A DNA stretch of 64,000 bases, from NCBI GenBank assembly GCA_947501445.1, contig CANMVS010000003.1:248001-312000 (forward strand), read 5' to 3'. Within the stretch, counting starts at the first letter, position 1. Each line of letters starts with the position of its first letter. The position numbers and the translations under genes were made by a program. This DNA comes from an uncultured Rhizobiaceae group bacterium. GTDB lineage: Bacteria > Pseudomonadota > Alphaproteobacteria > Rhizobiales > Rhizobiaceae. Of this stretch, positions 1 to 62,315 are shown piece by piece. Below the pieces are notes generated by a model. That model did no database searches. It was not told the origin of the DNA and saw only the letters and a list, made by a program, of their open reading frames with translations.

Positions 1-3000
1 TGAGCACTTCATTTGCCATGGCATAGTCCGATTGGCCGGTATTGCCGTATCGGCCGGCAATGGATGAAAACAGATTTACAAACTCCAGTTCGTCGGCATC
101 GGTCGCACTAAGCAGGGCCATCAGACCATCAACCTTGGTTTTGAAAACCCGTTCAAATTGCTGATCCGCCTTGTCCTTTATCAATTTGTCAGCCAGCACA
201 CCTGCACCATGGATCAACCCATTTATGCTGCCCCAGTTTTTGCGCACCTGAGAGATGACGTTTTCCACCTGCTCAGAATTGGTAATGTCGACAGCGTAGT
301 ACAATACGTTCGACCCGGCGGCTTCTATCGCGGCGATGGTTTTTGCAATATCCCTGGATGCAAGCAATTGACTGGATGCGGCACGCAGTTCAGCCAGCGA
401 TGACGCTTGCGGGGTGTTTCTTGCCTTGTCGGCAAGGGCACCAACCAATGCCGTGTCGCTGATATCTGCGTCTATATCTGCTGGCCAATCTATCAATTGG
501 GTTCGGCCGAGAAGCACAAAATTCAATTTGGCTACCTGCGCCAGATTGGTAATGATGGAGGCGGTAATCCCGCGACCGCCACCGGAGACAACAATGGTCA
601 TTCCATCGCGCAGATTGCTGATGTTCTGTGTGGATTGCGCCACTTGCCGGGATTTTGGTACGAGGCGTGTACCATCGGCCAGTAACCCAACTTCGGTTTC
701 ACTGCCACCGAACAGCAATTCGTCAGCAATTGCCTGGACGGCCAATTCCAACCCGGCTTCTGATAATGCAATATCTATGGCTTTGACATGTGCTTTTGGC
801 CATTCAAGGGCTGCCGTTTTCGCCAGCCCGGTCAGACCGCCACGCGCGGCCGCCTCTATGTCATGCAGATGCCGACCAAGCCTGCCACCGGTATCATGCA
901 GGGTGATGAAAACACCGCCTTCACGCTGAAAAACATCGGCAATTGTGCGCGCGGTACGCAGGGCATTCAAATGGACCTGCAAACTGCTGGCATCCAGTTG
1001 TAAGCCGGCGGTTGAGATAACAATACGAGCCTGGGGGGTGACCGTTGAGCAACACGTTGCGGCAAGACCACCCTCGGTCAGTTTCTCTGCAAGGGCATTT
1101 GCTACATCAGGTGCCTCATTGGTTACATAAATCGTATCGGAAGATTGAAGCCAACGTGCGGCACTATGATCGGCAACAACCTGCTGAAGCTCAACTTCCT
1201 GCCGAAACAAACCCATTTGTCCAGCTCGCGCTGGTGTCGTTTCGTCCAACTGAACTAAAGTTGGTTGAGTAGTTGCCACTTCAGCCTCAGCCTGAACTGA
1301 AACTTCACGACCACCGATCGCCTCGGCAATCTGCGCCAGTGTTCTCAGTTCCGCCAGCCTTGCCGGATCAATCTCCGGCATATCAGGCATGCGTTCGCGC
1401 AGTGCGGAGAGGATTTCAACCTGTTTGATGCTGTCGATACCCAGCTCTGCCTCCAGATCCATGTTCATGTCGAGCATGTCCTGGGGGTAACCGGTTTTCT
1501 CGGCAACGATCTCCAGAACAAGCGGGGCCATGGTGTCAACCTGGGCCGCTGCTGGTGTTGCCACCGAAGCTGCAATGGGTTGCGCGGCTGCTGTCACGGT
1601 CACGTCCTCTTGTGGCATGACAGCAGCTGCGATCGGCTCAGGCGCAGGGTGTGGAGCAACGCCGTTGAGCCCAGGGGGAGGTGTGGATTGTTGTGGAGCA
1701 GCGCCACCGATGGCCTCGGCAATCTGCGCCAGAGTTCTCAGTTCCGCCAGCCTTGCCGGATCAATCTCCGGCATATCGGGCATGCGCTCGCGCAATGCTG
1801 ATAGAATCTCGACCTGTTTGATGCTGTCGATACCCAACTCTGCCTCCAGATCCATGTTCATGTCGAGCATGTCCTGGGGGTAGCCGGTTTTCTCGGCAAC
1901 GATCTCCAGAACAAGCGGGGCCATGGTGTCGACCTGGGCCACTGCTGGTGTTGCCACCGGAGCTGCAATTGGCATCGCAATGGGTTGCGCGGCTGCTGTC
2001 ACGGTCACGTCCTCTTGTGGCGTGACAGCAGCTGCGACTGGCTCAGACGCAGGGTGTGGAGCAGCGCCGTTGAGCCCAGAGGGAGATGCGGATTGTTGTG
2101 GTGCAGCACCACCGATGGCCTCGGCAATCTGCGCCAGAGTTCTCAGTTCCGCCAGCCTTGCCGGATCGATCTCCGGCATATCTGGCATGCGTTCGCGCAG
2201 CGCTGAGAGGATTTCAACCTGTTTGATGCTGTCGATACCGAGCTCTGCCTCCAGGTCCATATTCATGTCGAGCATGTCCTGGGGGTAACCGGTTTTCTCG
2301 GCAACGATCTCCAGAACAAGCGGGGCCATGGTGTCGACCTGGGCCACTGCTGGTGTTGCCACCGGAGCTGCAATTGGCATCGCAATGGGTTGCGCGGCTG
2401 CTGTCACGGTCACGTCCTCTTGTGGCATGACAGCAGCTGCGACCGGCTCAGGCGCAGGGTGTGGAGCAGCGCCGTTGAGCCCAGAGGGAGGTGTGGTTTG
2501 TTGTGGAGCAGCGCCACCGATTGCCTCGGCAATCTGCGCCAGTGTTCTCAGTTCCGCCAGCCTTGCCGGATCGATCTCCGGCATATCTGGCATGCGTTCG
2601 CGCAATGCTGAAAGAATCTCGACCTGTTTGATACTGTCGATACCCAACTCTGCCTCCAGATCCATGTTCATGTCGAGCATGTCCTGGGGGTAACCGGTTT
2701 TCTCGGCAACGATCTCCAGAACAAGCGGGGCCATGGTGTCGACCTGGGCCGCTGCTGGTGTTGCCACCGAAGCTGCAACGGGTTGCGCGGCTGCTGTCAC
2801 GGTCACGTCCTCTTGTGGCGTGACAGCAGCTGCGACCGGCTCAGACGCAGGGTGTGGAGCAGCGCCGTTGAGCCCAGGGGGAGGTGTGGATTGTTGTGGA
2901 GCAGCGCCACCGATCGCCTCGGCAATCTGCGCCAGTGTTCTCAGTTCCGCCAGCCTTGCCGGATCAATCTCCGGCATATCAGGCATGCGTTCGCGCAGTG

Positions 3001-6000
3001 CGGAGAGGATTTCAACCTGTTTGATGCTGTCGATACCCAGCTCTGCCTCCAGATCCATATTCATGTCGAGCATGTCCTGGGGGTAACCGGTTTTCTCGGC
3101 AACGATCTCCAGAACGAGCGGCGCCATGGTGTCGACCTGGGCCGCTGCTGGTGTTGCCACCGAAGCTGCAATGGGTTGCGCGGCTGCTGTCACGGTCACG
3201 TCCTCTTGTGGCATGACAGCAGCTGCGACCGGCTCAGACGCAGGGTGTGGAGCAACGCCGTTGAGCCCAGAGGGAGATGTGGATTGTTGTGGTGCAGCAC
3301 CACCGATGGCCTCGGCAATCTGCGCCAGTGTTCTCAGTTCCGCCAGCCTTGCCGGATCGATCTCCGGCATATCAGGCATGCGTTCGCGCAGTGCGGAGAG
3401 GATTTCAACCTGTTTGATACTGTCGATACCCAGCTCTGCCTCCAGATCCATGTTCATGTCGAGCATGTCCTGGGGGTAACCGGTTTTCTCGGCAACGATC
3501 TCCAGAACAAGCGGGGCCATGGTGTCAACCTGGGCCGCCGCTGGTGTTGCAATAGGGTGTGCGGCTGCTGTCACATCCTCTTGTGGTGTGACAGCAGCTG
3601 CGACCGGCTCAGGCGCAGGGTGTGGAGCAGCGCCGTTGAGCCCAGAGGGAGGTGTGGATTGTTGTGGAGCAGCGCCACCGATGGCCTCGGCAATCTGCGC
3701 CAGTGTTCTCAGTTCCGCCAGCCTTGCCGGATCGATCTCCGGCATATCAGGCATGCGTTCGCGCAGTGCGGAGAGGATTTCGACCTGTTTGATACTGTCG
3801 ATACCCAGCTCTGCCTCCAGGTCCATATTCATATCGAGCATGTCCTGCGGGTAACCGGTTTTCTCGGACACAATCTCCAGAACAAGCGGGGCCATGGTGT
3901 CTGTAGCGTCTGTCTCAGGTGTAACTGCCGCGGCGGGGGTCGGCACAGTTTCTGTGCGCAGTTCCATTTGCTGGATTGCAGTCGATTTTATCTCGCCATG
4001 CATGATTTGCAAAATTGAATCAGGCAGTTCATCAATTGGCTGCGGTGCAGCTTTTGATTCATCCAGAAAATCCGTCGTTACACTTGCACCCGATGAGGTG
4101 TTGTCAGTCTGCATTGCAACGCGGGAGTTTGCCGTTGCCGACAGTTGCTGCTGATTTGGCCGGGCGGCTGCAACGGTTGGTGTTGAAACAACAGGGTTGG
4201 CTGGCAACGCAGCCAATTCTATCCGCGTGTCAGCTTGTGGCGGTATTACCTCTGCATTTTTGGGCGGATACGGTTTGTTGTGATTGGCACCATTGAGATA
4301 GATGGCATGTTTCCGCGGTTCCGCCAGCGGTGCGGGAGCCGGTGCGTGCTGCCACAGCGCATCAAGATCAACCGCAACATCATTGATGGCTAATTTACTC
4401 AATGCCTGGTGCAGCGCCGACCAGCCATGGGTCCGCTTGTTGTCGATAGAAATAGCCAGATGCTCCCTGGCCTGAAGGATGGTTTCAACAAGACCAGTGA
4501 TGACATTTCCCGGTCCGACCTCAATAAATGTGCGCACGCCATCGGCATACATCTGTTCGATCATGCTGCGAAAATGCACAGGCTTGGCAAGTTGTTCGCC
4601 CAGTTGAGCCTTGATCACCGAGACATCATTTTCGTGTCTCTTGCCGGATGTGTTGGAATAGACATCAATGCGGGGAGATTCAAAATTCAGTGAATTGAGA
4701 TGGGCACCGAAAGTCAGCGCGGCATTTGCAACCAGTGGCGAGTGAAACGCGGTGTCCACGGGCAACAAAGTACAGGCAACTTGCCGGCCTTCCAGCGATG
4801 CCTGGGCCTTGTCGATCTCGACACTGCTGCCGGAAAGAACAACCTGATTTTCACTGTTGTCGTTGGCAATGACAACGTCAATGTCCGATGTGGACAACCA
4901 TTGCGCAATCGATGCACGATCCAGTTTCACCGACAACATTTTGCCTTCGGCGTTTTTTGCGGCTTCGGCCATGGCCATGCCGCGCGCCCTTGCCAGGTGA
5001 AGCGCGGATTTATCGTCGAAAACCCCCGCGGCATGCAGGGCCATGACTTCTCCGAAACTGTGACCTGCGACACAATCAGGTTGCAGTTTGAGGCTTTTCA
5101 GAACCGCCAGCTGGCTCAGTGATACCGCACCAATTGCCGGTTGTGCGTTTTGCGTCTGTTTCAGCAAATTGATTTGATTTTGCTCGGATTGCTTGTCCAG
5201 CGCCGGAACAGGAAAGACAATCTGATGAAGTGCCTTGTCTGCCAGATCGTCCTGATCGGCAGTCCAATCCCAGATTTGTCTTGCTGCATCGAAGGAACAG
5301 GCAAGATCGGAGCCCATGCCGACGTATTGGCTGCCCTGACCAGAAAACAGGAAAGCAATTTTCCCGATTGAAGCCGGGCTGCTTTGATAGCAGATGTCCG
5401 GCATGGAGAATGAAGCCTGCTGACTGGCCATTTTGGCCGTCTTTTCCAACTGAGAGGCGAAATGCTTCAGATCTTTTGTGACGATAGATAGCCGAAATGG
5501 CTGTTTGGCATCAAAATCCTTTTGCGAAACCTGCGCAAAATGCGGCAGGTTGCTGTCCTGACGAATCTCTTCACACAGTGATTTTGCTTTTGCAAAAAGA
5601 TTTTCGGCGGAATTGGCAGAGAACAAAAACAGTTCAGTTGGCGCGGTACGAAGGCGCGGCGCGATTTTTCCCGGCCCTTTGTATTCTTCGACGATGGTGT
5701 GAAAATTGCTGCCACCAAAGCCGAACGAACTGACGCCAGCGCGGCGTGGATGGTCCGCGCCCCTGATCCAAGGCCGTGTTTTGGTGTTCAGATAGAACGG
5801 TGAATTGCCGATATCCATCTTGGGATTTGGTTTGTCGGCGTGCAGCGTTGGTGGCAGGGTTGCCTGATGCAGGGAGCTGATGATCTTTGCCAGACTTGCT
5901 GCGCCAGCCGCTGATTTGGTATGGCCAATCTGTGATTTTACCGAGCCAACTGCACACCAGTTCTTGTCGCCGGGTGCGGTTGGTTCAAAGACCTGTTTCA

Positions 6001-7084
6001 GGCCACCGAATTCTGCCGCATCGCCTGCTCTGGTTCCTGTGCCGTGCGCTTCCACCAGTTCAACTGTTCTTGCTGAAATATTCGCCGCATCCAGGGCGCG
6101 GTTGATGGCCAGGGCTTGCCCTCCTGATCTTGGCGCGTAAACGCTTGTTGCCTTGCCATCAGACGAGGCACCCATACCGGTGAGCACTGCATATATTGTA
6201 TTGCCATCACGTTCTGCGTCTTCAAGGCGGCGCAATGCAAACAGGCCGCAACCTTCGCCAAGCAGGGTTCCATCGGCGTCTTCGGCAAAAGGCCGGCAAA
6301 GTCCCGTAGGAGACATGGCGGGTGTCTTTGAAAAACACATGTACATGAATATATTGTTCAGCGCGTCTGACCCGCCAGCTATGACAAGGTCAGACTCACC
6401 GAGCCATAATTCATGAACCGCGTGTTTCATTGCAGCCAGTGAGCTGGCACAGGCTGCATCAGCCGTGAAATTTGTTCCATTGAGGTCCAGCCTGTTGCAA
6501 ATACGTCCGGCAACAACATTGCCCAGCAGGCCGGGGAATGTGCTCTCGCGCCATTCCGTATAGTGGGATGAAATCCTGGCGGCGATTTCCTGTGATTTAT
6601 CGGCTTCAATACCGGCCTCTTGCATGGCTCTGAGCCACATCGGTTGATTGAGGCGGCTGGCCATGTCCCCGATCAACTCCGTTCCGGCTGCAACACCGAT
6701 GATGACGCTGGTTTTTTCGCGATCAATATCATTGAATTTGTTCAGGCTTGCCTGTGCGAGTACCTGTTTGGCGATGTATAGCGAGATCAACTGAACAGTA
6801 TCGGTGGTCTCAATGACGTTTGGTGGAATTCCAAATTCAACCGGGTCAAAGGGAAACGACGGGATAAAAGCACCTCTATTCGCATAGGTTTTGTCCGGCT
6901 TGGACGGGTCGGCATCATAAAAATCAGATGGCAACCAATGGGTGCCTGGAATCTCGGACGATGCGTCTGTTCCCTCTACAATATCGCGCCAATAACCAAC
7001 TGTCGTTCCTCTGCCCGGGAACATGGTGCCCATGCCAACCACAGCAATCGGTGGTACCGGACTTTCCTTTTTAAGCAATGTCAT
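1..7084 (-). CDS. pfaA: PfaA-like polyunsaturated fatty acid synthase subunit (3' end beyond window)
   Basis: Multidomain iterative synthase. The frame is open from the ATG at 7084 (GGAG 8-9 bases upstream) to the window edge: 2,361 residues, C-terminus missing. Domain order as translated: ketosynthase at about 1-460 (active-site Cys212 in AACASSLAAM, then an AHGTGT motif); malonyl/acyltransferase at about 570-880 (Ser676 in GHSFGE); a Pro/Ala-rich linker; seven acyl carrier domains with phosphopantetheine serines at 1097, 1222, 1353, 1484, 1619, 1754 and 1885, each in LGIDSIK; and a ketoreductase (GGGRGIT near 2162, catalytic Tyr2354 in SDYAMAN). The order KS-MAT-(ACP)n-KR together with LGIDSIK serines is diagnostic of PfaA-type PUFA synthases (EPA/DHA or related lipids) rather than ordinary type I PKS. 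The start lies 20 bp after the pfaD stop, so the two are co-transcribed; pfaB/pfaC-type genes would be expected beyond the left edge. The final product cannot be deduced from this part. Confidence 0.93.
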   Translation of the reverse strand, partial: MTLLKKESPVPPIAVVGMGTMFPGRGTTVGYWRDIVEGTDASSEIPGTHWLPSDFYDADPSKPDKTYANRGAFIPSFPFDPVEFGIPPNVIETTDTVQLISLYIAKQVLAQASLNKFNDIDREKTSVIIGVAAGTELIGDMASRLNQPMWLRAMQEAGIEADKSQEIAARISSHYTEWRESTFPGLLGNVVAGRICNRLDLNGTNFTADAACASSLAAMKHAVHELWLGESDLVIAGGSDALNNIFMYMCFSKTPAMSPTGLCRPFAEDADGTLLGEGCGLFALRRLEDAERDGNTIYAVLTGMGASSDGKATSVYAPRSGGQALAINRALDAANISARTVELVEAHGTGTRAGDAAEFGGLKQVFEPTAPGDKNWCAVGSVKSQIGHTKSAAGAASLAKIISSLHQATLPPTLHADKPNPKMDIGNSPFYLNTKTRPWIRGADHPRRAGVSSFGFGGSNFHTIVEEYKGPGKIAPRLRTAPTELFLFSANSAENLFAKAKSLCEEIRQDSNLPHFAQVSQKDFDAKQPFRLSIVTKDLKHFASQLEKTAKMASQQASFSMPDICYQSSPASIGKIAFLFSGQGSQYVGMGSDLACSFDAARQIWDWTADQDDLADKALHQIVFPVPALDKQSEQNQINLLKQTQNAQPAIGAVSLSQLAVLKSLKLQPDCVAGHSFGEVMALHAAGVFDDKSALHLARARGMAMAEAAKNAEGKMLSVKLDRASIAQWLSTSDIDVVIANDNSENQVVLSGSSVEIDKAQASLEGRQVACTLLPVDTAFHSPLVANAALTFGAHLNSLNFESPRIDVYSNTSGKRHENDVSVIKAQLGEQLAKPVHFRSMIEQMYADGVRTFIEVGPGNVITGLVETILQAREHLAISIDNKRTHGWSALHQALSKLAINDVAVDLDALWQHAPAPAPLAEPRKHAIYLNGANHNKPYPPKNAEVIPPQADTRIELAALPANPVVSTPTVAAARPNQQQLSATANSRVAMQTDNTSSGASVTTDFLDESKAAPQPIDELPDSILQIMHGEIKSTAIQQMELRTETVPTPAAAVTPETDATDTMAPLVLEIVSEKTGYPQDMLDMNMDLEAELGIDSIKQVEILSALRERMPDMPEIDPARLAELRTLAQIAEAIGGAAPQQSTPPSGLNGAAPHPAPEPVAAAVTPQEDVTAAAHPIATPAAAQVDTMAPLVLEIVAEKTGYPQDMLDMNMDLEAELGIDSIKQVEILSALRERMPDMPEIDPARLAELRTLAQIAEAIGGAAPQQSTSPSGLNGVAPHPASEPVAAAVMPQEDVTVTAAAQPIAASVATPAAAQVDTMAPLVLEIVAEKTGYPQDMLDMNMDLEAELGIDSIKQVEILSALRERMPDMPEIDPARLAELRTLAQIAEAIGGAAPQQSTPPPGLNGAAPHPASEPVAAAVTPQEDVTVTAAAQPVAASVATPAAAQVDTMAPLVLEIVAEKTGYPQDMLDMNMDLEAELGIDSIKQVEILSALRERMPDMPEIDPARLAELRTLAQIAEAIGGAAPQQTTPPSGLNGAAPHPAPEPVAAAVMPQEDVTVTAAAQPIAMPIAAPVATPAVAQVDTMAPLVLEIVAEKTGYPQDMLDMNMDLEAELGIDSIKQVEILSALRERMPDMPEIDPARLAELRTLAQIAEAIGGAAPQQSASPSGLNGAAPHPASEPVAAAVTPQEDVTVTAAAQPIAMPIAAPVATPAVAQVDTMAPLVLEIVAEKTGYPQDMLDMNMDLEAELGIDSIKQVEILSALRERMPDMPEIDPARLAELRTLAQIAEAIGGAAPQQSTPPPGLNGVAPHPAPEPIAAAVMPQEDVTVTAAAQPIAASVATPAAAQVDTMAPLVLEIVAEKTGYPQDMLDMNMDLEAELGIDSIKQVEILSALRERMPDMPEIDPARLAELRTLAQIAEAIGGREVSVQAEAEVATTQPTLVQLDETTPARAGQMGLFRQEVELQQVVADHSAARWLQSSDTIYVTNEAPDVANALAEKLTEGGLAATCCSTVTPQARIVISTAGLQLDASSLQVHLNALRTARTIADVFQREGGVFITLHDTGGRLGRHLHDIEAAARGGLTGLAKTAALEWPKAHVKAIDIALSEAGLELAVQAIADELLFGGSETEVGLLADGTRLVPKSRQVAQSTQNISNLRDGMTIVVSGGGRGITASIITNLAQVAKLNFVLLGRTQLIDWPADIDADISDTALVGALADKARNTPQASSLAELRAASSQLLASRDIAKTIAAIEAAGSNVLYYAVDITNSEQVENVISQVRKNWGSINGLIHGAGVLADKLIKDKADQQFERVFKTKVDGLMALLSATDADELEFVNLFSSIAGRYGNTGQSDYAMANEVL
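1300..3895 (-). repeat. Seven tandem ~380-405 bp repeats encoding ACP domains
   Basis: In-frame direct repeats inside pfaA. Each unit runs from MAPLVLEIV through EKTGYPQDMLDMNMDLEAEL and the LGIDSIK serine motif to RTLAQIAEAIGG, then an Ala/Pro-rich linker. Serine-to-serine distances are 125, 131, 131, 135, 135 and 131 residues. ACP cores are almost identical at the DNA level. Differences are mostly small in-frame indels in the linkers: the units around 1923-2288 and 2328-2693 share an extra PIAM(P)-type insertion, and the unit at 3519-3854 is shortened. This pattern points to recent amplification or homogenisation. Confidence 0.95.
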
Positions 7085-7104
7085 TTTGAAAACTCCAAAT
7101 AAAA

Positions 7105-8673
7105 TCAATCAAGTGCAAGAGCACGTGGTTTAAAGTGAAATGCTGAAACGGGTACATTGAACCCCATGGATCGCAGTTGCTGCGCACGGGTAATCGCTGC
7201 AGCGCCCTCCAGCAGGTTCAGTCCAATTTGCTCAACTGTGCGTGCTTCGGGTTTTTCCAGGAAACTGTCTCGAACCCAATCATTAAAGGCACCCATCGAA
7301 GGGCCGCACCAGATTTGATAATCTGCCTTTCGATCAACCTTGCCGTCACGGGCCCATTGAGCACCGGAAAACAGATAGCCCTTGAATACGATTGCCATGC
7401 GCATTTTGGCATCGCCATCAGCCCTTTGTGCCCGTTGCGGGTCCTTCAAAGCGATGCGTGTGCGGGCCTTTTGCCATGCGGTTTCTATGGATTCCTTCAG
7501 TACCTGCTTTTCAAGCCAGCTGCGTTCCTTTTCGGGCAGGGCTTCGAGACTGTCGTAGGTGCGATACAGCGCATATAATTTCTTGCCTCGCACGGAAAAC
7601 ATCGTACCGCGTTTGAGGACCTGAACTTCCACGCCCAATTCGAACATATCTGCCGCCGGGGCCATGGCCACATCCGCGATTTCGCATTGCGCCAGCATCC
7701 CACGAGCTTGTTCGGAAAGGCCAGCTTCTACGGCGCTCTGGTTGATCGAACCGGTCAGTATGTAGTCAGCGCCCATTTGAAATGCTGCTGCTGTTGCCTG
7801 CGGTGTGCCAATACCACCGGCTGCGCCCAGACGAATGGTTTCTTCAAAACCGTGTTCTTGTGACAATCGCTCGCGCACCATGGCGATGGCCGGGAATAAT
7901 GATGTCAGCGGCCGGTTATCTGTATGGCCACCGGAACATCCTTCAACCGTTATGTTTTGTGCGACCGGGAGTTTGCTCTGCATCTCAGCCTGTTGTGCGG
8001 TGATCGCACCGTCAGCTACCAGTTTCTCCAACATGGTTTTGGGTGGCGGGGCCATGAATTGCGCGGCGATTTCTGTTCGCGAGATCTTGGCGAAAACATG
8101 GGTGTTACGGGCAATGGTGCCGTCGCTGCGACGCTCAAGACCACTGGCTGAATACCGTACAATGTCGGGTGTCAATTTCATGAATGCGGAGGCTGAAACA
8201 AGCCTGACGCCTGTTTCGAGGAAAAGGTCAACTGTCACGCGCTCCAATTCCGGATCATCCGGCGAAAAAATCAGGTTTGCGCCCCAACTGAATTCCTGAT
8301 CTGTGCGTGATTGTATTTCGGCAATAGCCTCGGCAATGGTCGCAGGCTTTAACCCGGCACTGCCAAAAAAGCCCACCATTCCCGCGTTAACGGCCGCAAC
8401 AACCATGTCAACTGAAGCAATACCACGGGCCATTTCTCCCACCACATAGGCAAACCTGCATTGATATGTGCTGGTAAAAACTTGAGAGCCAAGCCATTCG
8501 GGATAGACCGCAGGCACCAGGTGGTGAACGGCAGGCTGCTGTTCGTGTGCCGCGTGTCTGTTGATGTGCTGAGCGTGTGGTTCAGACAGTCGAATTAACT
8601 CGCGCGGATTATGGGCAGGAGCAGATATGTCTCCAGCACGCACTCGTTTTCCTTCATTATTCACAGTTTTCAT
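7105..8673 (-). CDS. pfaD: PfaD-like enoyl reductase, PUFA synthase component
   Basis: 522-residue TIM-barrel flavoprotein of the nitronate monooxygenase/2-nitropropane dioxygenase superfamily, which supplies the trans-acting enoyl reductase of PUFA synthases. Visible landmarks are the N-terminal YPEWLGS and FTSTYQCRFAYVVGEMARGI region, NAGMVGFFGSAGL, the EGCSGGHTDNRP segment, the flavin-binding GAAGGIGTPQA, and the C-terminal MGAFNDWVRDSFLE; all match PfaD, and the length is close to the usual ~540. I chose the ATG at 8673 because a GGAG lies 6-7 bases before it; a GTG at 8685 in the same frame has no Shine-Dalgarno sequence. It is the first gene of the operon, upstream of pfaA, unlike the pfaABCD order of marine gammaproteobacteria but like the myxobacterial pfa1-pfa2-pfa3 layout. 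The substrate is presumed to be an ACP-bound enoyl intermediate. Confidence 0.93.
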   Translation of the reverse strand: MKTVNNEGKRVRAGDISAPAHNPRELIRLSEPHAQHINRHAAHEQQPAVHHLVPAVYPEWLGSQVFTSTYQCRFAYVVGEMARGIASVDMVVAAVNAGMVGFFGSAGLKPATIAEAIAEIQSRTDQEFSWGANLIFSPDDPELERVTVDLFLETGVRLVSASAFMKLTPDIVRYSASGLERRSDGTIARNTHVFAKISRTEIAAQFMAPPPKTMLEKLVADGAITAQQAEMQSKLPVAQNITVEGCSGGHTDNRPLTSLFPAIAMVRERLSQEHGFEETIRLGAAGGIGTPQATAAAFQMGADYILTGSINQSAVEAGLSEQARGMLAQCEIADVAMAPAADMFELGVEVQVLKRGTMFSVRGKKLYALYRTYDSLEALPEKERSWLEKQVLKESIETAWQKARTRIALKDPQRAQRADGDAKMRMAIVFKGYLFSGAQWARDGKVDRKADYQIWCGPSMGAFNDWVRDSFLEKPEARTVEQIGLNLLEGAAAITRAQQLRSMGFNVPVSAFHFKPRALALD

Positions 8674-8689
8674 CACTTGCTCCACAAAG

Positions 8690-10217: not shown

Positions 10218-10576
10218 GGGCTGAACAATACGCCCGCCACTGACAGGACGCTATCCTGCACTTATTTGCCGCCTCGTATCGCCTCTGGATGCCAGCAGAG
10301 ATGTCGCCGGAAGGAATGCTTGACCCCTACGGATTATCTGCTTCTTCATGTGCATCTCGGCGAACAAGGGTGGCCTCTACAGACCCTATCTTCGGGCTCT
10401 TGCGCGCATATGTGGGTTTGTCGATATGCCTGAATTCCTGCAGCGTATTTTGTCAGTGATCGATGATTGCCGTGCCACAAAATACCCGCAGGAACGCAAA
10501 AATTCGAAATTACCCGATTGGGTGCTGACGGAAACACAATTATGTATTTAAAATAAACAACTTAGAAGAAAGACAA

Positions 10577-10652
10577 TGGTGCCGCTTACGTGACTCGAAC
10601 ACGTGACCCCCGCATTACGAATGCGATGCTCTACCAACTGAGCTAAAGCGGC
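10577..10652 (-). tRNA. tRNA-Thr (anticodon CGU)
   Basis: The reverse strand folds as a complete cloverleaf: acceptor GCCGCTT paired with AAGCGGC, D arm GCTC...GAGC, anticodon stem TCGCA/TGCGG with loop TTCGTAA (anticodon CGT in DNA, reading ACG), variable loop GGGTC, T arm ACGTG-TTCGAGT-CACGT, discriminator A. The 3' CCA is encoded (10577-10579). 76 nt. Confidence 0.97.
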
Positions 10653-10850: not shown

Positions 10851-11867
10851 TCAGGAACTATGCCGCACGATCAATTCTGGCTCTATTTGCATGGGTTCCC
10901 AATTGCCCTGGGATGTGGAGGACAAAAGTGCAACGATACGCATTGCGGCCTGCCTGCCAATATTGCGCGCACCGACATCAATTGTGGTGATTGCCGGAAT
11001 GGCATGTTCAGAAAGGTCGTAACTGCCAAACCCGCCGATTGCCATATCTTCCGGTACGCGAAGTCCACTGCGCTGGCATTCTGTCATGGCGCCAAAGGCC
11101 GACAGGTCTGAAACGCACATCACAGCTTGCGTATTGGGCCACTGTGAGAGCATTTGTTTCATCGCGCGGGCACCCTCACGCATGGTGATCGGTGGTGTGC
11201 CAAATGCGACAAGCCGTGTAGCTTCCAGCCCGCTGTCGCACAGCGCCTGCAAAAAACCCGCCCTGCGGTCCGCTCCACGGGCATCGCGCGAGGTGTCACC
11301 GCCGATAAAGCCGATGCGTTCATAGCCCCGTTCAACAAAGTGTTGAACCATCAACCGGCCAGCCTGTGCATTGGAAAAGCCGATCACCTGATCGATCGGT
11401 TCATGCGGCAGGTCCCACATTTCAACGACGGGCACACCGGCATTGACCAGGAACCGGCGGCATCGATCCGTGTGTGTGCCACCCGTTACAATAACAGCTT
11501 CAGGTCGTCGTCGCAGGAACAATTCTACCAGCCGCTCCTCTTCTTTGACGTCATAGTCACTGTAGCCAAGCAATATCTGCAGGTTGGTTTCCCGCAGACC
11601 CTCGGTCAGGCCGCGCAGCGTATCGGCAAAATTTGCATTGCTGACCGATGGAATAATGACCGCAACGAAGCCCGTTTTGCGCGAGGACAACCCGGAAGCC
11701 GTGCTGTCAATCACATAGCCAAGGGCATCAGCGGCTTCCCTAATCCGGTCACGGGTCTGTTTGCTGACAGAGGCGTCATCCTTGAAGGCACGTGAAACCG
11801 TCATCGACGATACACCGGTCGCATGTGCCACATCTGCCATTGTCGGCGTTTTGCTGGTTTTTTTCAT
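10851..11867 (-). CDS. LacI-family transcriptional regulator (sugar-acid regulon)
   Basis: 338 residues. N-terminal helix-turn-helix (TMADVAHATGVSSMTVSRAFKD, about 9-30) and hinge region, followed by a periplasmic-binding-protein-like effector domain (GFVAVIIPSVSNANFADTLRGL onward), typical of LacI/GntR repressors. The operator-like TGTTATCGCTACCA at 11879-11892 is 11 bp upstream of the ATG, suggesting autoregulation. Variants of the same operator precede the idonate/gluconate genes and both ABC transporter blocks, so this protein, the LacI at 23493, or both probably control them. The effector is inferred to be a sugar acid such as gluconate, 5-ketogluconate or idonate; the sequence does not prove which. 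Confidence 0.88.
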   Translation of the reverse strand: MKKTSKTPTMADVAHATGVSSMTVSRAFKDDASVSKQTRDRIREAADALGYVIDSTASGLSSRKTGFVAVIIPSVSNANFADTLRGLTEGLRETNLQILLGYSDYDVKEEERLVELFLRRRPEAVIVTGGTHTDRCRRFLVNAGVPVVEMWDLPHEPIDQVIGFSNAQAGRLMVQHFVERGYERIGFIGGDTSRDARGADRRAGFLQALCDSGLEATRLVAFGTPPITMREGARAMKQMLSQWPNTQAVMCVSDLSAFGAMTECQRSGLRVPEDMAIGGFGSYDLSEHAIPAITTIDVGARNIGRQAAMRIVALLSSTSQGNWEPMQIEPELIVRHSS

Positions 11868-11878
11868 TCTGCACTGAT

Positions 11879-11892
11879 TGTTATCGCTACCA
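11879..11892. promoter_or_regulatory. LacI-type operator O1
   Basis: TGTTATCGCTACCA, one mismatch from the 14-bp operators at 16199 and 28489. It lies just upstream of the lacI start at 11867. Confidence 0.6.
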
Positions 11893-12060
11893 AAGGGCCG
11901 ATGACAAGCGCACCTCAGGCGAACAGGCGGTTTTACCCAAAAAAATGAACTCTTGTGCCATGTTCTGCACAGAATAAGGGATGCCAGGCACTGCGAACCC
12001 CGATCGGCCTTCGGTCAACTACCAGTGGGATCGTCGGCTCCACGGCTTTCGCTACTCATT

Positions 12061-12660
12061 TCATCCGACGCGTGCGTCGAGGATTTTATCTATCAATCCC
12101 CACTCCAGTGCTTCCTGCGAGGTCATGAAACGATCGCGATCAAGCGCTTTTTCCACCTCTTCAAAAGTGCGTCCGCAATGGTGCGCGTATAGTCTGGTGA
12201 TGCGGTTTTTGGTTTGCTTCATTTCCTCTGCATGGATGAGAATGTCTGAAGTCTGTCCCTGAAAGCCACCCAGAGGTTGGTGCACATGCAAACTCGCATT
12301 GGGCAGCGCAGCACGGCCACCCGGTTCACCTGCCATCAAAAGGAATGAACCCATCGAGCGTGCTGTTCCCATGCACAGCGTATGAACCGGTGCCTGAATG
12401 AAACGCATCGTGTCATAGACCGCAAGGCCACTGGTAATCACACCGCCGGGTGAATTGATATAGAGGCTGATCGGTTTCTTGGGGTTTTCAGCTTCCAGGT
12501 GCAGCAATTGTGCGCATACGAGTGCGGACACGGTATCATTTACCTCACCGTTGAGAAAAACAATCCTCTCGCGTAGTAGACGCGAATAGATGTCAAAAGA
12601 CCGCTCTCCGTCGCTTGATTGTTCAACAACCATTGGGACGAGTTGCATCGCTTCGCTCAT
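12061..12660 (-). CDS. clpP: ATP-dependent Clp protease proteolytic subunit (ClpP paralogue)
   Basis: 199 residues. The N-terminus [20 protein letters not shown] resembles the LVPMVVEQ start of housekeeping ClpP. Landmarks are the INSPGG oxyanion strand, catalytic Ser in ARSMGSFLL, catalytic His in HVHQPLGG, and a conserved Asp in the DRDRFMT region. It forms a degradative tetradecamer with a Clp ATPase in the cytoplasm. The frame continues upstream to a GTG at 12711, but that codon lies in a RIME-like repeat; the ATG at 12660 has GGAG 7 bases upstream and gives the family's normal N-terminus. No clpX or clpA is adjacent, so this is probably an accessory ClpP. The usual ClpP 'AAS' before the serine neighbourhood is here TARS. 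Confidence 0.9.
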
Positions 12661-12698
12661 CGGCGAACTCCAATCTTCTATAAATTTAACTGTGATTT

Positions 12699-12801
12699 CA
12701 GACCGTTTCACGTTTTTTTAGAAACGGGATAACGGTGTCGGCTTTTGATTTTGTTGATGCATTCAGGCTTTTCTGATTTCATCAAAACCTGAATTGCTCT
12801 G
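12699..12801 (+). repeat. RIME-like intergenic repeat, copy 2
   Basis: Two consecutive palindromes: CCGTTTC...GAAACGG, then ATTCAGG...AAAACCTGAAT, joined by AACGGTGTCGGC and TTTGATTTTGTTGATGC. It lies between clpP and the SRPBCC gene and overlaps the spurious GTG extension of clpP. Confidence 0.85.
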
Positions 12802-12806
12802 GTGTG

Positions 12807-13160
12807 TCAGGCGGCCTGCATAACGGGCGACCTGTTGTCGTTTGCGATCATCTTTTGATCCTGCCTTGCGTCCGCAAGCTCATGAATAATGCGAAGATTT
12901 GTTCCACCAGTCTGGCTGGGGGTGATTTGAATTGTGGCGACGCTTTCAAGAAATGGCGGATCGCTATCAAGCATCCGGTAACGAACTTCCTGCTCCGGTA
13001 TGAATGAGATCGCTTCAGGATCACATAATTCTGCGTTGGGCAACCATATTTCGCGAAATTCCGCAATGCTGATCGCCCGCCAGACCTTTTGAACCGACGC
13101 GTCAATTTCATAGTCCAATATAACTCTGTTTTTCTGCTTATTGGCTTGATTGTATTTCAT
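12807..13160 (-). CDS. SRPBCC (START/Bet v1-like) domain protein
   Basis: 117 residues. The chain begins MKYNQANKQKNRVILDYEI and contains the AHSA1-type motif VQKVWRAISIAEFREIWLPN, placing it among the SRPBCC ligand-binding domains often encoded beside ArsR regulators. The ATG overlaps the stop of the upstream arsR-like gene as ATGA (13157-13160), indicating translational coupling. Ligand unknown. It is shorter than typical AHSA1 proteins (~140-150) and ends in a polar tail. Confidence 0.82.
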   Translation of the reverse strand: MKYNQANKQKNRVILDYEIDASVQKVWRAISIAEFREIWLPNAELCDPEAISFIPEQEVRYRMLDSDPPFLESVATIQITPSQTGGTNLRIIHELADARQDQKMIANDNRSPVMQAA

Positions 13161-13471
13161 TGATCCATGTCCTTCAGCAGCCCTTTGAGGGCGTCTATCC
13201 GCGCTGGCCAGTAGGATCTGTATTTCGTCAACCACTGCGCTATGAACACCAGGCCGTCCGGGTTGACCTGATAGTTTACGAAACGCCCGTGTCGTTCTTC
13301 CTGCACCAGCTTTGCACCCCGCAAAACGGTCAGATGTTGTGACATGGCCGGTTGGCTGATCTCCATACCCTCGCGCAACGCGCTGGCGTTCATCTCTCCT
13401 GAAGACAATTTCTCCAGGATCGCGCGTCTGGTCGGATCAGCCAGAGCTTTGAATATGTCATTTTCCATCAT
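13157..13471 (-). CDS. ArsR-family winged-helix regulator
   Basis: 104 residues. MENDIFKALADPTRRAILEKLSSGEMNAS followed by the recognition helix ISQPAMSQHLTVLRGAKLVQEERHGRFVNYQV is the classical metal-independent ArsR subgroup that partners SRPBCC proteins. No metal-binding CxC is visible. It is likely autoregulatory; a direct motif ACATAAGCAG...CTTATGTGAT lies just upstream (about 13480-13500) and could be its operator. First gene of a two-gene operon with the SRPBCC protein. Confidence 0.9.
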   Translation of the reverse strand: MMENDIFKALADPTRRAILEKLSSGEMNASALREGMEISQPAMSQHLTVLRGAKLVQEERHGRFVNYQVNPDGLVFIAQWLTKYRSYWPARIDALKGLLKDMDQ

Positions 13472-13662
13472 GACAACACATAAGCAGATACTTATGTGAT
13501 TCGCAAGTCCTTTTTGCAGGACATGCGTTGCCCGTCACCATCGGCCTGATGTCCGGTCCTGTGGACGTGGCTTTTTTATCACGAGCAGTCCGTTGCGGTC
13601 GTCCGCACAGACTTTGAAAGGTGGCTGCTATCGAGTGTGGGGCGTATCAGTGATCGTTCAGA

Positions 13663-13995
13663 TCACAGGACAAAGCTTTGTGCCTGCGTGACATGGTGGT
13701 GTATGCGACCATCGAAATATTGATCGACCAGTTTGGCGGTCATGTCTTTGGACTGAAAACGAGCGTCGCATTGCAGGGCCCTGTCCATGGATGCCAGATC
13801 AGGATAGCTGATTGCCAGTATCAAAGGATATTCCGGTGCGCCTTCATCACGCTCATCACTGAACATGACCCGCACTTCTGCAGCGCCGTCGAACTTTGTC
13901 CAAAGGGGTATCAGATTGGCATTGACGAAGGCCCGGAAAGCGTCTGTCTTGCCCGCTTTAACGGAGCCCTCGAAAAGTGCGTATCGGGTGATCAT
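13663..13995 (-). CDS. Small dimeric alpha+beta barrel-like protein, last gene of the sugar-acid operon
   Basis: 110 residues, starting MITRYALFEGSVKAGKTDAFRAFV. The beta-alpha-beta pattern and ending (YFDGRIHHHVTQAQSFVL) recall EthD/ferredoxin-fold dimeric barrels, but no catalytic residue can be named. Its start overlaps the stop of the dehydrogenase gene by four bases, so it belongs to the idnO-like/gntK operon and probably serves the same pathway. Function unknown. Confidence 0.75.
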   Translation of the reverse strand: MITRYALFEGSVKAGKTDAFRAFVNANLIPLWTKFDGAAEVRVMFSDERDEGAPEYPLILAISYPDLASMDRALQCDARFQSKDMTAKLVDQYFDGRIHHHVTQAQSFVL

Positions 13996-14879
13996 GCAGG
14001 CTCTCCTTGTTTCGGTCCTTCAAAATATTTCATCAAAGCGGCATTGTCAGCGCCGCCCAGTCCCGCCGATGTCAGCAGCCGGTGGATTTCGGCGCAGACC
14101 GCTGTTAACGGCATGGCTGTCTGCGTATCGCGGGCAAGGTCCTGCACCGCGTTGAGATCTTTCACCATATTGTCGATACGGCCGGTTGGCGTGTAATCCT
14201 TGACGGCCATTTTGCCCATGAATTCCTGAAGAATGGCGCTGTCTGCACGGCCACCCTTGATGGCCTGCGGAATCATCTTGGCATCCACACCGGCATCGAG
14301 CGCCAGTTGTGTTGCCTCTGCCACCGCAACAAAATTGAGTGCACACAACACCTGATTGATCAGCTTTGTCGTTTGTCCTGCACCTGACGGGCCCATCAGC
14401 GTATAATTACCGCACAGATGATCCATGACGCAGCGCGCTGCTTCAAAATCGTCGGCCTGTCCACCGGCCATGACTGTCAGCTGACCAATTGCGGCTTTGG
14501 GCGCACCGCCTGAAAGCGGGCAATCAAGCCAGCGCAATCCGCGCTGCTGGGCCTGCTCACTCAGAGCGCGTGTGGATGCCGGATCAATCGAGGACATATC
14601 GATGATCGTTGTGCCAGGTTGCGCCCCATCTACAACACCATTGGCACCAAAAACGGCTGCGCGGACGATGGCAGCGGAATTGAGGCTGAGTATGACATAT
14701 TGAGCCTTGCCGGCAGCACTGGCCGCCGATGGTGCCGCCTTTGCACCCTTGGCTACCAAAGCGCTGACTTTGACCGCATCAAGGTCAAATACATGCACAT
14801 TATTGTCGGTTTCCAGCAGTCGTGTGCCGATCGCGCTTCCCATAACGCCGGCACCGATCAACGCAATCTCATTGGTCAT
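13992..14879 (-). CDS. 3-hydroxyisobutyrate dehydrogenase-family NAD(P) oxidoreductase
   Basis: 295 residues of the beta-hydroxyacid dehydrogenase family. N-terminal Rossmann motif IALIGAGVMGSAIG, substrate-binding DCPLSGG near 122, and the catalytic Lys in GAGQTTKLINQ. Family members include 3-hydroxyisobutyrate dehydrogenase, tartronate semialdehyde reductase and several sugar-acid dehydrogenases; this one lies within a gluconate/idonate operon, overlapping gntK by 11 bp and the small downstream gene by 4 bp, so a sugar-acid-derived hydroxyacid is the likely substrate. Exact reaction unassigned. Confidence 0.85.
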   Translation of the reverse strand: MTNEIALIGAGVMGSAIGTRLLETDNNVHVFDLDAVKVSALVAKGAKAAPSAASAAGKAQYVILSLNSAAIVRAAVFGANGVVDGAQPGTTIIDMSSIDPASTRALSEQAQQRGLRWLDCPLSGGAPKAAIGQLTVMAGGQADDFEAARCVMDHLCGNYTLMGPSGAGQTTKLINQVLCALNFVAVAEATQLALDAGVDAKMIPQAIKGGRADSAILQEFMGKMAVKDYTPTGRIDNMVKDLNAVQDLARDTQTAMPLTAVCAEIHRLLTSAGLGGADNAALMKYFEGPKQGEPA

Positions 14880-61800: not shown

Positions 61801-62315
61801 TGGCACTGTCGGTCATCTACATCATTCTGGCCTGGGTCTTTGCAAGCTACTGGCGTCCTTTTGCCGTCATGCTGATCATACCCTTTGGCATTGTGGGGGC
61901 TGTTTTTGGCCATTGGTTGCTTGGCGTGCAACTCACCATACTTTCAATGATCGGTTTGCTTGGTCTTTCCGGCATATTGGTGAATGATTCGATTATTCTC
62001 GTAACAAGGCTGGATGAGCGTTTGCGTGAAGGTGAAGACCTGGAAAACGCCGCGACCGGTGCCAGCCGTGATCGGCTGCGCGCGGTGCTTTTGACCTCTT
62101 TGACGACGATTGGCGGCCTGTTACCATTGCTGTTTGAAAGAAGCCTGCAGGCACAATTCCTGCTGCCAATGGCCGTTACAATTGTATTCGGGCTTGCCAT
62201 GGCAACACTGCTGGTGCTGTTCCTGGTGCCGGCCCTGGTCGCCATAGGACAGGATATTCGCAATCTGTTTGTTGCTGTATTCGGGCATGAGCAGAAAATA
62301 AGCAGCGCTTCCTGA
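58890..62315 (+). CDS. RND efflux transporter (HAE1 family)
   Basis: 1,141 residues, the full AcrB-like length with twelve helices and two large periplasmic loops. N-terminal helix LMMLMILIGIFSMLKINTQFFPSV, porter motifs, and in the fourth segment GIIVDDAIVVGEH with the aspartate pair used in proton relay; the corresponding second-half helix ends LSGILVNDSIILVTRLDERL. It exports hydrophobic compounds out of the cell, substrate unknown. Relatives of this HAE1 branch often lack a dedicated outer-membrane gene. A polar ~35-residue linker (KKRAASKKADSSSATGASG) sits between the halves. Confidence 0.94.
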   Translation: MVSRSLEHAADDLRGSAGLVRTFIRHPNAANLLMMLMILIGIFSMLKINTQFFPSVDRPNINIAVSWSGASAEDIEANLLAVIEPEVRFVEGVDQMTSTAREGSGSIRLEFEEGSDMQKALSEVETAVKGLSTLPEDAETPTVSKASFFDRVASVSVGGSAPESIKREWAKRIRDDLIARGIDKVDFTALRDEEIQIDIPERELRRLGLTIDDISSRITNNSRDLPSGSLDGAIERQLRSLADAETPKALGAMEIVAFSSGEKVRLSDIADVKNAYDTTATRGFTNGAVAIEIDVRRSTSADTLRTARILDDYLEELRPQLPHNIELQTYEVAANALLDRILLLVKNGLGGLILVVVILFIFLDGRIAFWVAAGIPVALFATIGFMFVSGQSINMVSLFGLIMMLGIIVDDAIVVGEHTNTRLQMGDSPAMAAENGVGMMIKPVLAAMTTTLAAFAPMLLITDTIGQIMGVLPLVVIAVIIASLLECFYVLPGHLAHALERQPGPRWSYWRQFSIAFGLVVIIWTIASPLGFTDDFLPEGSPVLNFLNSLNNIDAPVRAILVGGFALLVGSSVEFVIVGLKKRAASKKADSSSATGASGFRQHFDHYFGLFRDGPFNTMVVLSYRWRYVTVSIAVGLVLILVVGLIQSKKVEFVFFPSPEAENVRGNVGFIAGFPEADALQAIAQIEAAFRTVEEELTGGDEKLADAIFVMFSKASRFGGTSATIKIQLTSSEYRNVRTPDIVRAWTKAVPDIPGVSRFSVFQSRGGPPGRDIDIELRGDRITDLKDAATEIIPLLASIDGVSGADDNLPYGKPELVIEMLPRGAALGFTANSIGRQLRNAFDGQIPFRFARGDDEVTVRVSQIMRAGGTGALRSFELRSPDGEFVPLTEVATLTERQGFAYISRRDGKTKISVTGDIDNEINTTDGVIEQLENTGVIAAVASKYGVDYQYGGRSEEQKTAFADLQLGLIVALSVIYIILAWVFASYWRPFAVMLIIPFGIVGAVFGHWLLGVQLTILSMIGLLGLSGILVNDSIILVTRLDERLREGEDLENAATGASRDRLRAVLLTSLTTIGGLLPLLFERSLQAQFLLPMAVTIVFGLAMATLLVLFLVPALVAIGQDIRNLFVAVFGHEQKISSAS

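Follow-up and report, generated by a model that had tools for sequence, protein, structure and literature searches.

The left end of the window, a 64,000-nt stretch of DNA from an uncultured Rhizobiaceae bacterium (G000:C3:248001-312000), carries most of a pfa operon, of which the third gene lies just outside. The operon very likely encodes a stand-alone three-gene iterative synthase of the Pfa type, which would use seven acyl carrier proteins (ACPs) to assemble malonyl units into a long-chain acyl product. The parts expected of a Pfa synthase were all found: a PfaA-type protein, a PfaC-type ketosynthase (KS) and chain length factor (CLF) with a FabA-like pair, a PfaD enoyl reductase (ER), a Pfa-type KS, and a phosphopantetheinyl transferase (PPTase). 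Judged from its sequence, the synthase is genuine and probably working. Its unusual point appears to be a combination: a dehydratase (DH) of the polyketide synthase (PKS) type, DH4, is kept at the end of the third protein, and both the DH1 dehydratase and the acylglycerophosphate acyltransferase (AGPAT) domain are absent. The names DH1 and DH4 follow the usage of PMC6731297.

Gene order and reading frames

The window holds the whole of pfaD and 2361 of the 2446 pfaA codons, its left edge cutting pfaA. The rest was read from an overlapping stretch of the contig (L028, G000:C3:238001-258000), which matches the window at an offset of 10000 in the overlap. The genome (G000; 6.82 Mb, 110 contigs) is 99.18% complete.

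7105..8673, minus strand: pfaD, ER subunit, first gene of the operon (TIGR02814, start context)
2..7084 in the window, minus strand: pfaA, encoding KS, malonyl acyltransferase (MAT), seven ACPs and ketoreductase (KR) as KS-MAT-7xACP-KR; open reading frame (ORF) 2-7108; whole gene L028:9744-17084, 2446 aa (TIGR02813, Pfam)
L028:2106-9689 (G000:C3:240106-247689), minus strand, outside the window: pfaBC, 2527 aa (Pfam, TIGR02816, DH profiles)

The first-pass annotation had described pfaD followed by a KS-MAT-7xACP-KR pfaA on the minus strand. This was confirmed by the ORFs, TIGR02814, TIGR02813 and Pfam, with 20 bp between the pfaD stop and the ATG at 7084, the likely start of pfaA. Read from the ATG at 8673, preceded by GGAG, the pfaD frame gives 522 aa; an alternative GTG at 8685 gives 526 aa (ORF 7105-8685). 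PfaD scored 595.3 bits against TIGR02814 (pfaD_fam; cut-off 449.25), and PfaA scored 1689.7 bits against TIGR02813 (omega_3_PfaA; cut-off 1010.1). Chance matching is no issue at these bit scores. At E <= 0.001, the genome gave no PfaD match other than this pfaD.

A leftward search for pfaB- and pfaC-type genes, proposed in the same annotation, found the fused pfaBC gene 54 bp past the pfaA stop, so that the order is pfaD-pfaA-pfaBC. With PfaC-type KS-CLF-DH-DH domains downstream, their absence was ruled out, and the proposed Pfa-type secondary-lipid synthase in an alphaproteobacterium proved complete. All three frames are uninterrupted.

Domains of PfaA and PfaBC

The domains of PfaA in the window were as follows.

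5510..7051, minus strand: KS with C-terminal extension, residues 12-525; Cys212, His347, His388 (PF00109/PF02801, motifs)
4475..5353, minus strand: malonyl-type acyltransferase, residues 578-870; GHSFG Ser676, His781 (PF00698, motifs)
1307..3910, minus strand: seven tandem ACPs, LGIDSIKQV in each (PP-binding matches)
2..598, minus strand: KR, part in the window; Ser2341, Tyr2354, Asn2358 (PF08659, motifs)

The ACP stretch repeats in tandem with a period of 393 (6.6 copies, 93% matches). Copies 2-6 encode the same protein over 80 residues, and any two of them differ at 8-15 of 240 nt, by silent changes only. Seven ACPs was the top count among 45 loci compared, some of them truncated at a contig end. 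A higher number of ACPs is reported to give a higher yield (PMC5067506).

PfaA ends only 60 aa beyond the KR match, which leaves no room for a C-terminal PKS-type DH1. The PS-DH profile, used to look for DH1 there, gave no match in the pfaA ORF.

PfaBC consists of a KS, a CLF-like segment, an acyltransferase (AT), two FabA-like DH pairs (DH2 and DH3) and a putative C-terminal dehydratase, DH4. The KS spans residues 5-392 with Cys193. The CLF is a second, partial PF00109 stretch, in which the active Cys is missing as judged by eye. The AT (residues 848-1167) has Ser953 and His1071. PF07977 (FabA) matched two stretches, the better at 1600-1734; a FabA-type match was also found at 1978-2130, with about 380 aa beyond it. 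Catalytic pairs were assigned by motif as His1641/Glu1655 (DH2), His2031/Glu2045 (DH3) and His2164/Asp2320 (DH4).

A profile of six PfaBC C-termini matched solved PKS dehydratases (6obv, E 1.4e-6; 7tzl, 1.7e-6; 3kg7, 1.6e-5), and the DH4 His and Asp were invariant across the six. Against the Pfam PS-DH cut-off, one C-terminus (L052) was above, four were below, and L049 gave no match. An iterated DH profile run over 135 loci found 41 ORFs, with matches after the KR in many PfaA proteins, including gammaproteobacterial ones, and at the C-terminus of many PfaBC proteins. At this locus it matched only the PfaBC end.

Three duplicates or near-duplicates were dropped, and the remaining 38 rows were used for a DH tree. 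It separated 14 PfaBC-type (DH4) from 24 PfaA-type (DH1) rows with support values of 100/100. The labels were set by the reach of the profile match and fitted the gene positions of those rows that were inspected. The sequence from this locus was among the 14, grouped with those of an alphaproteobacterium (G919) and Tepidamorphus (100/100).

A move of DH1 from PfaA onto PfaBC was considered and rejected, as some genomes carry both copies and the tree places ours with the PfaBC copies. DH1 and DH4 occur together in Paenibacillus (two genomes) and in deltaproteobacterial, Planctomycetota and another proteobacterial metagenome-assembled genomes (MAGs). We therefore read this locus as one in which DH1 is missing and DH4 retained. 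A PKS-type DH on the C-terminal subunit was dropped as a novelty in itself, for DH4 is already described in Minicystis rosea Pfa3 (PMC6731297).

AGPAT was not detected in this PfaBC (no PF01553 match at E <= 1), and the protein terminates after DH4. PF01553 matches exceeded the cut-off in L052, L059 and L104; this locus, G919 and Tepidamorphus had none. Past DH4, residues 2440-2527 approximately form a stretch conserved in relatives, with an invariant Lys and His-Pro; in this locus it had no Pfam family match.

Proposed reaction scheme

In the proposed scheme, the PfaA MAT would load malonyl, and the two KS domains would condense, the second with its CLF partner. The KR would reduce. Where a cycle ends with a cis double bond, dehydration and isomerisation would fall to DH2 and DH3. 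In fully reducing cycles, DH4 of PfaBC would supply the trans-2-enoyl intermediate, which PfaD would then reduce; DH4 is given this role because the usual DH1 of PfaA is absent. The PfaB-like AT would handle the finished chain, a role given to it because AGPAT is absent.

These assignments follow reports that PKS-like DHs provide trans-2-enoyl for the ER and FabA-like DHs the retained cis bonds (PMC9667614), and that PfaB works at a late stage, on acyl chains that are already long (PMC12895367). Placing DH4 into another Pfa3 is reported to shift the product, and a His2270Ala change to reverse the shift (PMC6731297).

The product is most likely a polyunsaturated acyl chain of C20-C24 that passes into lipids, and another secondary lipid is possible. 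A non-polyunsaturated product, such as a long saturated, mono-unsaturated or hydroxylated chain, is conceivable but doubtful. The DH complement here is unlike that of described producers of polyunsaturated fatty acids. Shulse and Allen also placed heterocyst glycolipid and phenolic lipid synthases in one group with Pfa-like clusters, and for 14 of their 20 types no product was known (PMC3098273). On the other hand, the His and Glu are kept in both FabA-like pairs, which points to cis double bonds, and Type F (hgl) is described as having no FabA-like domains (PMC3098273).

Domain sets in related synthases

The closest described system is Pfa1-Pfa2-Pfa3 of M. rosea (arachidonic acid, AA/docosatetraenoic acid, DTA type; PMC6731297, PMC8436480). 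By its published description, it shares with this locus the pfaD-pfaA-pfaBC order, the fused AT, FabA-like DH2 and DH3, a late DH4 and an unlinked PPTase. Compared by description, this locus differs in having no DH1 at the PfaA end, nothing after DH4 (no AGPAT) and seven ACPs, and in that its KS and PfaD fall in an alphaproteobacterial group. Aetherobacter fasciculatus Pfa1-3 (docosapentaenoic acid, DPA/docosahexaenoic acid, DHA type) has the same gene order and fused AT, but is described as having DH1 and AGPAT and no DH4, the reverse of what is seen here (PMC6731297). Of the features of myxobacterial Pfa1-3, the ER-first order and the fused AT were present here, and the DH1 of Pfa2 and the AGPAT of Pfa3 were not.

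Among alphaproteobacteria, Azospirillum lipoferum (L059) and A. melinis (L132/L142) have the same gene order, DH4 on PfaBC and no DH1 found, as here. They differ in having AGPAT after DH4 (PF01553 at 41.4 bits in L059; a profile match to 891/894 in A. melinis) and two ACPs. The A. lipoferum PfaD is 51%, and its PfaA KS 57%, identical to ours. A Tepidamorphus sp. MAG (L060, L049) and G919 (L050) carry DH4 without DH1 or AGPAT, as here. G919 has five ACPs, the Tepidamorphus locus is split over two contigs, and the GC content of these stretches is 59-67%.

The gammaproteobacterial pfaABCD systems (Types A and B) have the same enzyme classes and another KS group. Unlike here, they have a separate pfaB in the order pfaABCD (PMC3098273) and PS-DH on PfaA (L157, L182-L186).

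Forty-five loci showed both the PfaA end and the PfaBC start. DH1 was present in 17 of these (two from one genome), and none was found in 28, though the Gemmatimonadota loci L122 and L126 have space for a DH1 which the profile may have missed. In 16 genomes compared with a DH3-DH4-AGPAT profile, the match extended into DH4 in nine (G982 with an internal stop) and covered the FabA-like part only in seven. It reached the AGPAT end in six of the nine: Paenibacillus, A. melinis, Planctomycetota, deltaproteobacterial, cyanobacterial and one other proteobacterial genome.

In Paenibacillus L104 and L125, pfaBC lies upstream of pfaD and is preceded by an ORF ending in DH1. Both have DH4, and L104 has AGPAT; these Gram-positive relatives showed the fullest domain set seen. 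G297, from the same order as our genome, has two similar split stretches (pfaA / KR-DH1 / PfaC-type) on two short contigs (L056, L057).

Alphaproteobacterial Pfa-like clusters have been reported in Agrobacterium vitis (Type H), Beijerinckia (Type P), and Dinoroseobacter and Parvularcula (Type O) (Shulse and Allen 2011, PMC3098273), and synteny with A. melinis is reported in PMC8436480. The ER-first order and the occurrence in alphaproteobacteria are already known, and the DH combination is a variant. No description of an AGPAT-less synthase with DH4 and without DH1 was found in searches of an open-access library, a weak negative.

Gene order and phylogeny

Gene order was compared in 80 named loci, drawn by likeness to this PfaD from at least 540 confirmed PfaD matches; the counts that follow hold among the matches listed. 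The pfaA KS began at most 1.5 kb downstream of pfaD in 74 of the 80, with a gap of at most 300 nt except in L086, L114 and L138. The taxa included Mycobacterium, Hyphomonas, Gemmatimonadota, Planctomycetota, Acidobacteriota and others. In the other six, pfaBC was upstream of pfaD (two, Paenibacillus), pfaD was followed by pfaBC (one) or only pfaD was seen (three). All 37 loci that showed the three genes had the order pfaD-pfaA-pfaBC. This indicated that the ER-first order is ordinary among the nearest relatives; since the sample was chosen by PfaD likeness, it carries no information on the frequency of other orders in remoter ones. L131 and L129, MAG contigs labelled Klebsiella pneumoniae and Bifidobacterium breve, also carry PfaD, and these organism labels look doubtful.

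For the KS tree, redundant loci, mostly of Mycobacterium and Hyphomonas, were removed before a 78-row quick tree (which included L159). The final 64 rows comprised 45 from that tree and 19 further KS: 14 from PKS of this genome, and three FabF-like from this genome and two from a congener. This locus, G919 and Tepidamorphus grouped together (100/100). The group belonged to a 31-row clade (100/100) whose other members included Hyphomonas, Azospirillum, Mycobacterium, Gemmatimonadota and Myxococcota. Within it, a subclade of its own (99/93) was formed by ten rows, among them the myxobacterial ones. Support was weak for the order within the three-row group (90/29) and for joining that group to the Hyphomonas group (86/33). 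The PfaD tree (41 chosen loci) recovered the same three (99/97), joined by Hyphomonas-type loci and Bauldia (96/89).

The 14 PKS KS of this genome formed a separate clade (100/95), and the operon KS did not group with modular PKS KS in the 64-row tree. Membership of the modular or trans-AT PKS was thereby not supported. A KS tree of that kind and a lack of PfaC-type dehydratase domains were the two outcomes that the first-pass annotation had named as overturning its reading, and neither was observed.

That annotation had also likened the gene order to that of myxobacteria and suggested lateral transfer. The likeness stands, but the suggestion as worded was not supported, for the order is shared by many phyla. 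Uptake of the operon from a myxobacterium is very improbable. M. rosea does share the three-gene ER-first order and DH4. However, the ER-first order is widespread among the listed relatives, and KS and PfaD group with alphaproteobacteria; the myxobacterial KS rows (none named M. rosea or Aetherobacter) are in another supported subclade. The GC content of the operon (53.8%) is also like that of its surroundings (52.9%).

A strict eicosapentaenoic acid (EPA)/DHA synthase is unlikely. Four gammaproteobacterial KS rows (L157, L158, L162, L163), whose EPA/DHA label was inferred from TIGR02813 scores, stood apart (100/100) with the KS of this locus outside them; neither that clade nor the pfaABCD order of Types A and B applied here. 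DH1 is absent. Adding DH4 to the A. fasciculatus synthase is reported to yield n-3 DPA and DHA; M. rosea, in which DH4 occurs naturally, is reported to make mainly n-6 AA, DTA and TTA (PMC6731297).

Occurrence and genome setting

Occurrence was counted with this genome included. In the genus, full-length PfaBC was found in one of eight genomes; the seven others showed a FabF-like KS and short FabA-like matches. In the family, PfaD-like proteins (E <= 1e-50) were found in 2 of 199 genomes. The second, in G048, shows 41% identity, shares its frame with an AT-like stretch and lies beside PKS genes. PfaBC was found in 3 of 397 genomes of the order (at 1e-90) and 4 of 385 of the class, and TIGR02813 (at 1e-150) in 25 of 398 of the phylum. 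G380 of the order is the Tepidamorphus MAG, for the stretch taken from the L060 genome falls exactly inside a G380 contig; Tepidamorphus belongs to the Hyphomicrobiales in the Alphaproteobacteria, which fixes the class and order of the window. The occurrence in one of eight genomes makes it likely that the operon was either acquired or differentially lost within the genus.

That the operon is a non-functional relic is scarcely credible. Its restriction to one genome of the genus and the divergent DH4 would fit a relic, but the three frames are open, the catalytic motifs are present, and ACP copies 2-6 differ silently only.

The operon lies in a variable slot, the right border of which is a tRNA gene.

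10577..10652, minus strand: tRNA-Thr (CGT), right border of the slot holding the operon (tRNA scan, congener comparison)

Counterparts of this tRNA were found in all five congener stretches scanned. G006 and G007 keep the genes right of it. In G004 the tRNA and the RpiR/BKACE pair (70% and 60% identical) are both retained; 8.4 kb separates them, and nothing in that interval matched our ORFs. The variable slot was recognized from these three comparisons. The slot in G004 (L202:1823-10208) has two overlapping minus-strand frames of >1000 codons and one plus-strand frame of 406 codons. In the window, LacI, ClpP and other genes (10851-14860) lie between the tRNA and a gluconokinase-like gene; in G006 the latter adjoins the tRNA, so the right side of the tRNA is variable too.

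Left of pfaBC is a BKACE gene in the opposite direction, followed by an RpiR/SIS-type regulator. The 12 flanking proteins scanned were BKACE, RpiR/SIS, TRAP and other transporter parts, LysR, an amidohydrolase, LacI, ClpP, a dehydrogenase and one unmatched protein.

A tRNA-borne island was considered. No exact repeat of at least 13 bases from window positions 10541-10652 was found in contig positions 220001-258000 or in the window, and no integrase was found among the 12 flanking proteins, other flanking ORFs being outside that scan. Insertion targeted to the tRNA thus stays unsupported. GC content was compared with the window and the left flank: 53.8% in the operon, 53.0% in the window (52.9% right of 9 kb) and 52.3% in the left flank. 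This gave no sign of recent entry.

The PPTase called for by the first-pass annotation was found in the genome, although not beside the operon. It is of the Sfp type, 278 aa long, on G000:C7, and is the predicted partner of these ACPs. Its relatives occur in three of the eight genus genomes, two of them without the operon, so the PPTase is not tied to the operon. In the whole genome, PF01648 matched once (this PPTase) and TIGR00516 (AcpS) not at all; of 14 controls only 5 scored over the TIGR00516 cut-off, and the AcpS miss may reflect poor sensitivity or an assembly gap.

Other PKS genes, with open frames up to 5365 aa, lie at C14:44243-98467 (11 KS, about 54 kb), C5:8358-13811 (two KS) and C4:244838-245581 (one KS). 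It is improbable that the operon supplies an acyl tail to a hybrid metabolite of these PKS and a non-ribosomal peptide synthetase (NRPS). The genome has 14 PKS KS domains, and pfa-PKS-NRPS hybrids have precedents (PMC13291983, PMC12964715). Against this, no PKS or NRPS family was found among the 12 flanking proteins, and the KS matches of the contig beyond the operon are only at 61863 and 396130. PfaD here also lacks the extra ACP described for the mgp and dxp families (PMC13291983, PMC12964715).

Standing and implications of the proposed synthase

Several points weigh against a working three-gene Pfa synthase that uses DH4 as proposed. We know of no product for this branch of the Pfa family. 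No lipid-handling partner was found among the 12 flanking proteins. The AT of PfaBC scored 100.1 bits against TIGR02816 (PfaB family), below the cut-off of 144.3. DH4 alone scored 12.5 bits against PS-DH (E 0.11; cut-off 23.7) and shares no more than 34% identity with its nearest relative; it is thus divergent, and its activity is only predicted. Finally, Hyphomonas-type loci (G969, G981, G983, G769) have neither DH1 nor DH4, and therefore the FabA-like DHs may suffice.

We tentatively suggest, at rather low confidence, an alphaproteobacterial set (this locus, Tepidamorphus, G919, Azospirillum and G948) that lacks DH1 and would obtain trans-2-enoyl via DH4, with release by the AT instead of AGPAT in the three closest. 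Our confidence in this suggestion was lowered slightly because the DH4 of this locus, taken alone, is under the Pfam cut-off.

The locus by itself is no proof of a new lipid. It does place ER-first, fused-pfaBC synthases, sporadically and in an accessory slot, in an alphaproteobacterial order. Engineered exchanges have indicated that the PKS-type DH1 and DH4 steer the Pfa product (PMC6731297). If the suggestion is correct, the set would be natural counterparts of these exchanges, and its acyl product would differ from what the marine or myxobacterial enzymes make. For the question of how Pfa synthases place double bonds, natural DH4-only synthases would cleanly test the division of labour among the dehydratases.

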